From Pseudoroseomonas cervicalis (lineage in GTDB: Bacteria > Pseudomonadota > Alphaproteobacteria > Acetobacterales > Acetobacteraceae): DNA of 64,000 bases. Positions 52,338-58,866 of this stretch are shown here, in pieces. The notes below the pieces were generated by a model that was not told where the DNA came from, did no database searches, and saw nothing but the letters and a program-made list of their open reading frames with translations. Where the stretch lies: assembly GCF_030818485.1 (NCBI RefSeq), contig NZ_JAUTAJ010000004.1, positions 2,211,001-2,275,000 of the forward strand. Reading direction: 5' to 3'. How positions within the stretch are numbered: the first letter of the stretch is position 1; every line of letters begins with the position of its first letter. Made by a program: the position numbers and the translations under genes.

Positions 52338-52583
52338 ATGGTCAAGGCCTCCCTGCTGCTGATGCTGGTGCTGACCCTGCTGATCGGCATGGGGCTGCGC
52401 TGGCGGCAGGAGCGCCTGCCCCAGGTGGCGGCCGCATCCCCGCGCGGCCGCGCCCGCAAGCCCGGGCTGCTGGCCCGCGGCAAGGCGCGGCTCGACCTCT
52501 GGATCACCGCCGCGGCGCTGGCCTCGGTCGCCACCATCCTGCTGATGGGCGGGCTGCACTGGATTCGTGTCTGGCTGCAGTGA
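52338..52583 (+). CDS. Small two-helix membrane protein
   Basis: This 81-residue protein has an N-terminal helix ([15 protein letters not shown]), a basic loop ([16 protein letters not shown]) and a C-terminal helix ([21 protein letters not shown]). It lies between purS and purQ on the same strand. Small proteins of this kind are found at this position in related bacteria, but I do not recognise a named family. Confidence 0.65.
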
Positions 52584-52632
52584 CCGCGCCGCTTTCCCCA
52601 CCCCCTCCCCTCCAGCCTCCGGGGCCCGTTGC

Positions 52633-53331
52633 ATGAACGCCGTCATCCTCCTCTTCCCCGGCACCAACCGCGAGCGCGACATGGCGATCGCGCTGCACAA
52701 GGCGACGGGGCGGAAACCCACCATCCTGTTCCACCAGGAGACCAGCCTGCCCGCCGGCACCGACCTGGTGGTGCTGCCCGGCGGCTTCTCCCATGGCGAC
52801 TATCTGCGCTGCGGCGCCATGGCCGCCCGCTCCCCCATCATGCCGGCGGTCGCCGAGTTCGCGGCCAAGGGCGGGCATATCCTGGGCGTCTGCAACGGCT
52901 TCCAGATCCTGACCGAGGCCGGGCTGCTGCCGGGCGCGCTGCTGCGCAATGCCAGCCTGCGCTTCCTCTCCATGGATTGCCATTTGCGGGTGGAGACCAG
53001 CGACAGCCCCTTCACCAGCCGGTGGCAGCGCGGCGAGACCTATCGCGCGCCGATGGCGCATGGCGACGGCAACTACTTCTGCGATGACGAGACCCTGGCG
53101 CGGCTGCGGGGCGAGGCGCGCGTCGCCTTCCGCTATGTCGATGCCAGCGGCCAGGCGACGCCGGAGGCCAATCGCAACGGCGCGCGCGACAACATCGCCG
53201 GCATCCTGAGCGAGAACCGCCGCATCCTGGGCATGATGCCCCACCCGGAGGATCTGGTGGACCCGCTGATGGGCGGGACGGATGGGCTTCCTCTCTTTGA
53301 GAGCATTGCTGGGGTGTTTGAGGGGGTTTAA
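52633..53331 (+). CDS. purQ: Phosphoribosylformylglycinamidine synthase subunit PurQ
   Basis: This 232-residue glutamine amidotransferase supplies ammonia to PurL. The nucleophilic cysteine lies in [23 protein letters not shown], and the catalytic His/Glu pair in [28 protein letters not shown] is also typical. In relatives purL usually follows directly; here about 3.2 kb lies between them. Confidence 0.96.
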
Positions 53332-53419
53332 GGCAAGCCGGCTCTCATGCCATATTTGGCTTGATCGCTGATAGGAGCCTGCGCTTCTGTCTGTGCTTAT
53401 TAGTGCTCTTTCGAGCAAA

Positions 53420-53453
53420 CGCTTCATGGCGTATTCATAATCGCCATGAAGCG
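53420..53453. terminator. Stem-loop between purQ and the SIR2-kinase gene
   Basis: A perfect 12-bp stem (CGCTTCATGGCG / CGCCATGAAGCG) with a 10-base AT-rich loop is followed by ATTCATTTTTATG. It may terminate the purC-purQ transcript, or act as an operator for the downstream gene, whose ATG is about 90 bases away. Its base composition belongs to the island rather than to the purine genes. Confidence 0.55.
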
Positions 53454-53545
53454 ATTCATTTTTATGTCGAAAAATTAAAGTCAATATATTTTTCCAAGAA
53501 AAATTGATGATATAGAAGTCATCTCATTGCCAAGGGATGACCTCG

Positions 53546-55924
53546 ATGTCCGACGCCTCATCAACGCTTCAACGACTCAAGGAAGCTTACGCTGAGCGTA
53601 GAAGACCCGTTGTGTTTTGGGTCGGTGCGGGACTGAGTGCTCCAGCAAGCTTGCCAACTTGGGGTACCTTAAGGGACAACCTAGTGGTTGAAGCTCTTGA
53701 AGGCATTGGCCCCAAGAACACTCCCGAGGCACAGGAAAAAGAAAATCTACTTGAAATCGCAAAAGCAAGTAATAATTATTGGGATTCTTTCGAAACAGTA
53801 AAAACTGTAATGGGGAAACCTAATTTTATAGCCAGCATAAGAAGGTCTTTAAAAACAAAAGATAATAATATACCTGATGTATACAAAGAGATTTGGTCGC
53901 TTCGCGGCGTAAATGCCGTACTTACTTTAAATATGGATAAATTTGTAGAAAGAGCCCATCGCCGGATGAGGCCCAAAGAAGATCCGGTGGTTTTTAGTGG
54001 TCGAGATGCTCCGTCTTATATGCACGTTCTTGGAGATCGAAAACCATTTATCGCAAATCTTCATGGAACCATAGATGATCAAAATTCTTGGATTTTCACC
54101 AAATCAGAAGTAGACCATCTTTATTCGATATCAGGATATCAAGAATTTATAACTACTATTTTTGCAAGTTCCATTGTTGTATTTATCGGAATTTCAGCAG
54201 ATGACGCTGCTGCCGGAGGAAATTTATATAACCTCACACAAAAAAATATGGACCTTGGGGAACATTTCTGGATCACCCATCGAACCGGAATTTCCGATTG
54301 GGCTAGTCGCGCAGGCATTCAAGTAATTTCGTATGAGCCTGATTCAACTGGTCCTGAAATCCATAAACACACCAATCCTCTTTGCAGCATACTAAGGGAA
54401 ATCAAATCTTTTAAATCAAGGGATAAACCGGCAGCCAGTGTTTTAGCTCAAGTAGAGCTAAGGGAGAGCCTAGATTCCCCCCGTGAGCTTCGCATGCTGG
54501 ATGATGATGATTTGCGCCTAGCCTTGTCAGGGCACGCAAGATATTTGGTCGAAAAATTTGGCCCCTCTTCAAAAGAATACAATGAATTTCTTGTTAAATA
54601 CGCCTCAAATATTCACCAATCTTGGCACATAAGCACTGATGGAGAGAATAATACTTTTTACGGATACAAAGTTCTTGAGCAGATACATGGATCTTCTTTT
54701 TCCACCGTTTGGAAAGTGGAAGATTCAGAAAGTCGCCGAATGGCTTTAAAGCTATTAAGAATAGACAATATTAAATCCGGCATTCAAATAGATAGTTTCA
54801 GACGCGGTGTTCAATCCCTACAATTCTTAACCAATTCACAAGTACCAGCAACTGCAAGACTATTTAATGCATTTGAAATACCGACATCTTATGTAATGGA
54901 GTACGTAGATGGTTCGAGTTTACAGAATATAATACCTTCTGGAATGGTTAATATATATCCAGACTGTCTGAATATCATGTCAAAAGTCTGCGCTCATTTA
55001 TATTATAGTCATAATTTACCCCAAAGCGTCCTTCATCGTGATATTCGTCCTTCAAATATCATGTTGCCTTATATCATGCTCGAGGAAGCAGACGCAAAAA
55101 CTCTAAATGTTTCTAGATATGACGTAGTTTTGCTAAATTATGACATGTCGTGGCATTCAAATGCAGCGGGTGAAACTATCGCAGGAAATATGGAGGAAGC
55201 TGGATACTATGCGCCCGAACAGCTAGTAACCGCTGGCGAGAAGGCTCGAAGCACGTATGTTGATTCTTACGGCGTGGGTATGACTTTATTCTATGCTTTT
55301 TCTGGAATTTCTCCACCAAACGGGGGCAGTAATTCTCGTGATTGGCTAAAAATATTGTCTGAAAAAATTAGAAACGACAATAGGCTGTCATGGCGCTCAG
55401 CCCCAGCGCGCCTACGCCGACTGATTCAGGGCGCAACAGAGCCAGAGGTTGAAGATCGTTTAAGTATAACTCGCATTAAAACCGATTTGGAGATTTTATC
55501 TCGCGCCATAAGTGGCAATTTAGATAGAATACCTGTCGATTTTTGGGCAGAGGAGATTATGTTTCGCTGCGAAGAAGCTGAATATCAGGCCACAAATAGC
55601 GGATATTCTTTTGTCAGAAATCCAAGGGCAGGAAGATCAATTGTCATTTCTGGAGATGAAAAAAGTAAATCGATATCCGTACAATTCAAAAATCAGGCGA
55701 TAGCTTCAACAGACAGAAAAAATATTGATCGACTTTGGTTTGATAAATTATCAAGCGCGAAGCAGATATTGCAGTCTCATGGATGGGATATTTCCAACGA
55801 AAGCCGATACGGTCAGAGGGAGATCCTATTGTTTGCTTCGGTAAAAGTTGAAGATGCCAGAATTTCTCTTGCCAAATTGGTGACTGGCCTTCAGCGAGGA
55901 TTGCAAGCCGTCAGACTCGACTGA
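53546..55924 (+). CDS. SIR2-like NADase domain fused to a kinase-like domain (candidate defence protein)
   Basis: This 792-residue protein is strikingly AT-rich compared with all neighbours. Residues about 20-270 are a SIR2_2-type domain: GAGLS (27-31), TLNMD (N129, D131), NLHGT (H173) and FIGISADD, all expected for NAD+ hydrolysis. Residues about 370-620 are a protein-kinase-like domain: glycine loop HGSSFSTVW, lysine K402 in MALKLL, HRDIRPSN (D499, N504), NYD at 531-533 where DFG is expected, then YYAPEQL and DSYGVGMTL. The last 150 residues are of unknown fold. I use ATG at 53546 because AAGGG lies 9 bases upstream. A single-gene abortive-infection role is inferred from architecture and context. 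Confidence 0.85.
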   Translation: MSDASSTLQRLKEAYAERRRPVVFWVGAGLSAPASLPTWGTLRDNLVVEALEGIGPKNTPEAQEKENLLEIAKASNNYWDSFETVKTVMGKPNFIASIRRSLKTKDNNIPDVYKEIWSLRGVNAVLTLNMDKFVERAHRRMRPKEDPVVFSGRDAPSYMHVLGDRKPFIANLHGTIDDQNSWIFTKSEVDHLYSISGYQEFITTIFASSIVVFIGISADDAAAGGNLYNLTQKNMDLGEHFWITHRTGISDWASRAGIQVISYEPDSTGPEIHKHTNPLCSILREIKSFKSRDKPAASVLAQVELRESLDSPRELRMLDDDDLRLALSGHARYLVEKFGPSSKEYNEFLVKYASNIHQSWHISTDGENNTFYGYKVLEQIHGSSFSTVWKVEDSESRRMALKLLRIDNIKSGIQIDSFRRGVQSLQFLTNSQVPATARLFNAFEIPTSYVMEYVDGSSLQNIIPSGMVNIYPDCLNIMSKVCAHLYYSHNLPQSVLHRDIRPSNIMLPYIMLEEADAKTLNVSRYDVVLLNYDMSWHSNAAGETIAGNMEEAGYYAPEQLVTAGEKARSTYVDSYGVGMTLFYAFSGISPPNGGSNSRDWLKILSEKIRNDNRLSWRSAPARLRRLIQGATEPEVEDRLSITRIKTDLEILSRAISGNLDRIPVDFWAEEIMFRCEEAEYQATNSGYSFVRNPRAGRSIVISGDEKSKSISVQFKNQAIASTDRKNIDRLWFDKLSSAKQILQSHGWDISNESRYGQREILLFASVKVEDARISLAKLVTGLQRGLQAVRLD

Positions 55925-55926
55925 GA

Positions 55927-55944
55927 CAGGCAGGCAGGCAGGCA
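55927..55944. repeat. (CAGG)4 tandem repeat at right edge of the island
   Basis: Four copies of CAGG plus CA lie three bases after the SIR2-kinase stop. I found no matching copy at the left edge, so it cannot be called a target-site duplication. It marks the change from AT-rich to GC-rich DNA. Confidence 0.6.
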
Positions 55945-55996
55945 TACGGGGAAAGGAAAATTTGCCTATTATCCAGTTTTTTGGCAATTACTCGGA

Positions 55997-56605
55997 ATGA
56001 GCGCGACCTACCCTTCCCGCCTGCCGCCGCCCTCCCCCAACCGCCAGCGGATGACGGACCTCGAATGGGCCGCGCTCCTCCCCTACCTGCTGCACCGCTC
56101 GCCCCAGGGCCGCCCGCTGAAGGAACTCCGCCAGCGGATGGAGGGGATTTTCCTGATTGCCACCACCCACCGCCCCTGGCGTGACCTCCCGGCGGAGTAT
56201 GGCAAAGCGGACACCGTCGCCCGCTATTTCCGCCGCCTCACCCATGCGGGCCTGTGGGAAAGGCTGTTGCAGGCGCTCGCCGATTCTGCGCCGTCCCATC
56301 CGCTCTGGGGCCTGGGCCAGCGCATCCTGCACGCCTGCCGCCGCGCCCACCGCATCCTGGGCCTCGCCTTCAACCGGCTGATCCGCAGCCTCGGCCTGCG
56401 CGCGGCGCTGCCCGGCCCGCCCTGGCTGCTGCCCGATCCGCTTTTGTCCGAAACCCTCGCTCGCATCGCAATTCCGGCCCCGCACACCGCCCCCTGGGGC
56501 CGGCGCGGCGCCCTGAAAGAAAGGCTGCGCAGCCTGCAATGGCTGCACCGCGCCGCCGCAGGCCGCGCGCGGATCAGCCGCGCAACCCGGTTGGGGTGGC
56601 CATGA
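55997..56605 (+). CDS. Stand-alone DUF4096 (IS5-type transposase N-terminal) protein
   Basis: This 202-residue protein carries, at about residues 19-97, the helical DUF4096 domain usually found at the N-terminus of IS4/IS5-type transposases ([13 protein letters not shown], then [34 protein letters not shown]). The remaining 105 residues are basic and have no visible DDE catalytic motifs. No terminal inverted repeats were seen. Its stop overlaps an in-frame ATG of purL (ATGA at 56602). It is either a transposase remnant or a domesticated DNA-binding protein. Confidence 0.7.
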
Positions 56606-56652
56606 CGATGCTTCCTCTGGACAAGCGGCCCATCCCTGCCGAAAAGCCGCTC

Positions 56653-58866
<2,214 letters not shown>

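Follow-up and report, generated by a model that had tools for sequence, protein, structure and literature searches.

A SIR2–kinase-like fusion gene in a variable slot upstream of a lone DUF4096 gene in Pseudoroseomonas cervicalis: a candidate single-protein defence effector

The SIR2 domains of the defence proteins DSR2, ThsA and LmuA destroy nicotinamide adenine dinucleotide (NAD+). In DSR proteins the sensor is large and helical, ThsA carries a SLOG domain, and LmuA has an SMC-like protein, LmuB, as its partner. Hotspots of defence genes at core genes have been described in P. aeruginosa (PMC10250203) and E. coli (PMC10121019), where variable defence cargo is reported to occupy a fixed core locus. 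Here we describe a gene of Pseudoroseomonas cervicalis that encodes a SIR2 domain and a protein-kinase fold in one polypeptide. It was found in a window of 64,000 nucleotides (contig NZ_JAUTAJ010000004.1, positions 2,211,001 to 2,275,000), between purQ and a lone DUF4096 gene that precedes purL. On balance, we favour the view that it is a one-protein defence effector, carried as the cargo of an exchange slot upstream of DUF4096. Within this view, the NAD+-degrading (NADase) half is the better supported part and the switch the less supported one.

The AT-rich island and its gene

Guanine-cytosine (GC) content drops from about 0.70 to 0.36-0.43 across the island and goes back up at about position 56000. 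Only 10 of the 236 overlapping 540-base steps of the window have a GC content below 0.60, and all ten cover the island. A single gene fills it (53546-55924, +), between purQ and the DUF4096-purL pair in DNA of 70% GC. The open reading frame (ORF; 53537-55924, +) encodes 795 amino acids from the ATG at 53537 and 792 from the ATG at 53546; residues are numbered on the 792-residue version, which agrees with the H173 and D499 of a preliminary description of this DNA. GC content at third codon positions is 0.335 (SIR2 part 0.319, kinase part 0.326, tail 0.356), against 0.89 in purQ, 0.87 in the DUF4096 gene and 0.92 in purL. These values bear out the adenine-thymine (AT)-rich island with a switch in codon use that the preliminary description had reported. 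The foreign origin it had proposed is likewise supported. The gene is carried by none of 16 congeners, where the matches are partial and kinase-only. Of the two outcomes that the preliminary description had named as refuting, neither appeared, since both domains are matched and the gene is missing from the congeners. The features are as follows.

52567..53331, +, purQ, left conserved flank (GATase_5, E 1.6e-40; 99% protein identity in the sister genome G010)
53332..53545, no strand, AT-rich leader, left end of the island; G010 homology stops at 53337
53546..55924, +, SIR2-kinase-tail gene, 792 amino acids (ORF call, Pfam, relatives)
53552..54418, +, SIR2 NADase-like domain, residues 3-291 (GAGLS, N129, D131, H173, D220)
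54623..55504, +, protein-kinase fold, residues 360-653 (K402, HRD D499 and N504 kept; DFG reads NYD; loop Ser383 and Ser386)
55523..55921, +, C-terminal alpha/beta domain, residues 660-792, probable binding module
55954..55968, +, conserved element AGGAAAATTTGCCTA upstream of DUF4096, putative promoter or operator
55997..56605, +, lone DUF4096 gene, 202 amino acids, right slot border (PF13340, E 4.7e-19); its stop overlaps the purL ATG
56602..58866, +, purL, right conserved flank; the right G010 homology break lies at 56377, inside DUF4096

Both domains of the protein pass the Pfam cut-offs (SIR2_2, E 3.4e-12; Pkinase, E 3.5e-19), so that the fusion of a SIR2 and a kinase-like half in one polypeptide, as first described, holds. 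The SIR2 half is DSR2/ThsA-like, with GAGLS, N129, D131 and H173 intact; among aligned proteins with letters at those positions, N129 and D131 are kept in 85 of 85 and H173 in 86 of 87. In the kinase fold, K402, H497, R498, D499 and N504 are invariant in all 89 aligned proteins and D533 is present in 88. The position of the DFG aspartate, residue 531, is occupied by Asp in 47 of these proteins, by Asn in 41 and by Lys in one. Wherever residue 531 is Asn, Ser or Ala replaces the third glycine of the loop, position 386 (41/41), and Asp531 is paired with Gly386 in 46 of 47. The window protein, with N531 in the DFG position and serines at 383 and 386 of the glycine loop, belongs to the altered type, whereas the other clade of the family retains the glycine loop and DFD. 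In a tree of 80 near-full-length proteins, site 531 requires one change and site 386 four (counting G, S and A), and the Asp531 group was monophyletic with a support of 0.50. Because the two sites are so tightly linked, the pattern fits a change in the function of the cleft rather than random decay. The motif [DN][FY]D[LM]SWH (residues 531-537) replaces DFG in most of the family, and its second Asp, residue 533, is the better conserved one (88/89).

The protein does not have the look of an ordinary active Ser/Thr kinase: the Lys, the HRD Asp and the loop Asn are present, but the DFG Asp and the glycine-rich loop are not. The kinase-like half of the preliminary description stands as a fold, but in this clade hardly resembles a plain active kinase. 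Since Asn531 and Ser/Ala386 occur in the clade while K402, D499 and N504 are invariant, the sequences suggest that the altered cleft acts as a nucleotide-bound switch. The C-terminal alpha/beta domain, a conserved tail, is probably a binding module that may serve as recogniser. Other conflict systems, too, are reported to contain degenerate kinase domains (PMC7159879).

Relatives of the SIR2-kinase protein

A search of 5.8 billion proteins, in which 7997 candidates were scored, returned 103 hits. Among the 88 non-self hits at E <= 2.1e-62, 85 have both Pfam domains and three are kinase-only fragments; the next match, at 6.1e-10, is a kinase of different build. A genome collection yielded 34 loci (L062-L095) at E <= 1e-27, later rows covering the kinase region only. 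Among the groups named in the titles are Alphaproteobacteria, Planctomycetes, Acidobacteria, Anaerolineae, Bacteroidetes, Cellulomonas, Corallococcus and Cloacimonadota, some of the phylum assignments being ones that we presume. Within the class the gene is rare, being found at E <= 1e-30 in 2 of 385 genomes, one of them the window's own. Two predicted viral contigs in IMG/VR (L210, L211) hold relatives with 33% and 30% identity.

The neighbourhoods of the relatives were compared by using 122 mechanically called genes beside them and 122 (of 132 listed) beside unrelated kinases. The former matched 154 PADLOC models at 1e-10 and the latter 47, led by kinase models. Restriction-modification models were the commonest beside the relatives (at most three members per model), and mad2, type IV restriction and PbeA were also present. 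This comparison, whose units are model counts, supports a link to defence without giving its size. PADLOC models for LmuA and for defence-system kinases match the window gene itself, and other defence-like genes occupy the same slot in relatives; both findings support the connection to defence made in the preliminary description.

The slot upstream of DUF4096

purQ was located in 15 of the 16 congeners; for the remaining one, G015, whose genome is the least complete, the search gave no more than a 35-base match. Eleven congener stretches were read, nine of them with purQ, DUF4096 and purL and two (G009, G003) with purQ only. Each of the nine complete loci has a DUF4096 gene ahead of purL, reduced to a 3' fragment in G010, and the purQ-purL gap varies in length and content. 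An AT-rich block ends directly before DUF4096 in eight of the nine; G016 has none. The cargo comprises GmrSD_N and HNH in G010, an AAA-type ATPase, matched only weakly in Pfam, and its 254-amino-acid partner in G006, DUF2971 in G005, a 351-amino-acid gene of GC 0.50 in G013, a Drt8-type reverse transcriptase (E 1.6e-83) in G001, genes of 255 and 276 amino acids in G014 and G002, and AAA_21/HEC-01A with a partner resembling DUF4276 (below cut-off) in G008. The purL slot of G007 (L172) holds two further different genes. Related strains thus carry differing defence genes at one conserved locus, which is what defines a core-genome defence hotspot.

Closely related pairs show where the cargo changes. 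The window and G010 are 98.6% identical on the left and 95.2% on the right of different cargos, homology being lost at 53337 and resuming at 56377, and G014 and G002 are 95.1% and 94.3% identical to the left and right of theirs. For several pairs the right-hand break lies among the first codons of DUF4096, and the left borders differ. Three congeners whose cargos differ share a palindrome, GGCAGGAACCT..AGGTTCCTGCACCTC, which ends where the AT-rich block has its left border, at L057:6671-6790, L060:4222-4341 and L172:11296-11415 (reverse strand). The gene had first been described as an insertion into a usually contiguous operon. A foreign gene does lie between purQ and purL, but a simple insertion has to be corrected, because DUF4096 precedes purL in all nine congeners. 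The locus is better read as a slot anchored by DUF4096, in which genes are exchanged repeatedly and which is met again at other genes.

DUF4096 matches at E <= 0.001 were found in 107 of 150 genomes of the family. A first set of 36 copies consisted of the window, nine congeners and 26 of the 27 best further DUF4096 loci. With a flank called AT-rich at GC < 0.60 in the 540 bases up- or downstream, and L189 set aside, AT-rich DNA was found upstream in 28 of 35 copies, downstream in 0 of 36 and in 13 of 1353 overlapping background windows of the same loci; 11 of these loci are at the purL slot of one genus, so that positions are not all independent, though the cargos are different. Twelve additional copies in the genus, used as a hold-out, gave 10/12 upstream, 0/12 downstream and 6/312 in the background with the same cut-off. 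Among DUF4096 copies with lower scores the pattern is mostly absent. DUF4096 is followed by purL in 18 of the 36 loci. At others the protein sequences point to argG (L190-L192), alaS (L180), a NAD synthetase (L195) or a thyX-like gene (L189), and at several to a different gene or to none that can be clearly named. Six of the 12 hold-out copies stand before an argG-like gene. This slot is a second variable site with differing cargo (L190, L191, L192, L214, L215, L217, L218, L220, L221), and most argG-type copies have TTGACAAAAGGA-TAAATTCCT or close variants upstream.

A cargo ORF was called in 27 of the 28 AT-rich loci, L192 being the exception, and PADLOC was run, with a threshold of 1e-5, on 29 of the 36 listed cargo ORFs of at least 150 amino acids. 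At least one gene matches at this level or better in 15 of the 27 slots. The matched cargos are the window gene; NsnA with GmrSD_N; PDC-S31 (9.6e-6); Drt8; HEC-01A; AriAB (2.1e-54); a type II methyltransferase beside a BglII-type endonuclease; a CBASS cyclase (3.8e-113); PDC-S23; a ThsA-like SIR2 beside a ParA-like gene; PDC-M41B; a PN-superfamily effector; PDC-S02 (4.5e-143); PDC-M63B; and PDC-S19. Three cargos may be singled out. In another genus, a ParA-like ATPase and a small ThsA-like SIR2 lie upstream of DUF4096-purL (L184:6475-8305). A 1031-amino-acid AT-rich slot gene has an N-terminal nucleoside-phosphorylase domain and a remainder with no Pfam match at 0.01 (L187:3216-6308). A two-gene cargo that PADLOC does not match, a 254-amino-acid gene and an AAA-type ATPase whose C-terminus weakly resembles RNA_pol_A_CTD, is a candidate new system (L052:3078-5344).

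In the 202-amino-acid DUF4096 protein only PF13340 exceeds the Pfam cut-off and no DDE domain was found; its best match is 96% identical over 93% of the query (P0104). The DDE transposase domain that an IS5-family transposon would have is thus not seen here, and the next gene in the window is purL. The ratio of nonsynonymous to synonymous substitutions (dN/dS) is 0.12-0.49 in all eight pairs computed, so the protein is maintained by purifying selection. The upstream element AGGAAAATTTGCCTA occurs once in the window's genome at <= 1 mismatch. Across 17 genus genomes it gave 12 hits in 10 genomes, eight directly upstream of DUF4096, two at ends of purQ-holding contigs and two elsewhere; the reversed-sequence control gave two forward and two reverse hits. 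No inverted copy of the element was seen at the left side of the window's slot. The region upstream of DUF4096 may bind the DUF4096 protein or may drive the next gene, the reading as a promoter being a weak one.

Proposed mechanism, alternatives and known systems

We propose that, upon phage infection, the C-terminal and kinase-like parts would detect a phage-linked signal, with ATP or another nucleotide probably bound in the kinase cleft, and would then set free the SIR2 domain at the N terminus, which would degrade NAD+. The loss of NAD+ would arrest phage growth but also sacrifice the cell. The cargos swapped between strains just upstream of the lone DUF4096 would be AT-rich and often defence-like, as a rule one or two genes at once. 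A more far-reaching proposal is that of a docking system of the Acetobacteraceae, in which a domesticated, noncatalytic DUF4096 protein and its own element would mark single AT-rich defence cassettes directly upstream of housekeeping genes and actively govern how these are exchanged or expressed; the SIR2-pseudokinase NADase would be one of dozens, and the uncharacterised cassettes would be new defence systems. We hold this to be rather unlikely, in part because the promoter pattern TTGMCW-(16-18)-TANNNT, found before 6 of 36 DUF4096 copies (e.g. L056, L177), is absent before the window's own. This absence and several further observations also weigh against the explanation that we favour. Twelve of the 27 slots have no PADLOC match at 1e-5, two of them having weaker ones (L179, 1.1e-5; L180, 5.1e-5), and 9 of the 47 DUF4096 copies with upstream sequence have no AT-rich cargo. 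Among 57 GC-rich flank genes a total of 47 PADLOC models find a match, no model with more than two genes and the leading ones being DpdF, PsyrT and BrxHI, which we take to be helicases; a background thus exists, although the units of the cargo and flank counts differ. Finally, G010 holds cargo with only a 3' DUF4096 fragment, so an intact DUF4096 is not needed to keep cargo.

The last point also favours a reading of the slot that is compatible with our own, in which DUF4096 merely marks the site without acting on it and homologous recombination between conserved flanks is the sole means of cargo exchange, as in other core-gene hotspots. The two close pairs with flanks 94-99% identical around different cargos, and the breaks at different points of DUF4096, agree with it; the one-sided arrangement with the same protein subfamily at unrelated genes, as well as the purifying selection on DUF4096, do not, and we give it a slightly less than even chance. 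For the protein itself, the roles of the halves might be reversed, the kinase phosphorylating host or phage proteins as in PD-T4-6 and the SIR2 half sensing or regulating through NAD+ or ADP-ribose. The invariant K402, D499 and N504, the matches to PD-T4-6 and mad6 models and the clade with glycine loop and DFD speak for such an effector. Nevertheless, the window's clade has Asn for the DFG Asp and Ser/Ala for the third loop glycine, and the SIR2 site is intact and of NADase type, which makes this account unlikely. The chance capture of a toxin-antitoxin-like gene, or of a regulator, with no part in defence is quite unlikely given the defence-like cargo in the same slot of relatives and the restriction-modification genes near relatives elsewhere. 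A SIR2 NADase under the control of a kinase-like switch is the reading that we favour.

The comparison with described systems places the locus as follows. With DSR2, DSR1 and ThsA the window gene shares the SIR2 fold and the Asn, Asp and His of the active site, but its partner half is a kinase fold with an alpha/beta tail. LmuA with SIR2, from Lamassu, is the best PADLOC match of the SIR2 half (1.1e-20, residues 9-298); the SMC-like LmuB that a Lamassu system would have does not adjoin, and the only AT-rich ORF of at least 80 amino acids between purQ and purL is the SIR2-kinase gene, followed by DUF4096. The PD-T4-6, MAD6 and PknB-type kinases have the same fold, Lys and HRD, whereas the window protein is fused to SIR2, reads NYD for DFG and has Ser for loop glycines. 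IS5/IS402-type transposases share the DUF4096 domain; the window's protein differs from them in its 202 residues, the lack of a detected DDE domain and purifying selection, and family copies often lie directly before housekeeping genes. In contrast to the core-gene hotspots, the DUF4096 slot usually contains one or two AT-rich genes, which lie upstream of members of a single protein family (an AT-rich downstream flank was seen in 0/48 copies) and occur at several loci across the bacterial family. No description of a SIR2-kinase defence polypeptide or of a DUF4096-bordered slot was found in the open-licence literature. The question raised is how single immune genes enter and leave beside housekeeping genes without harm. 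In conclusion, SIR2 NADases, defence kinases and core-gene hotspots are already known, and what is new is the unnamed fusion family, whose split into normal-looking and degenerate kinase sites makes the switch testable by mutation, together with the rule to look upstream of a lone DUF4096 gene, which predicts where new defence genes may lie in this bacterial family.
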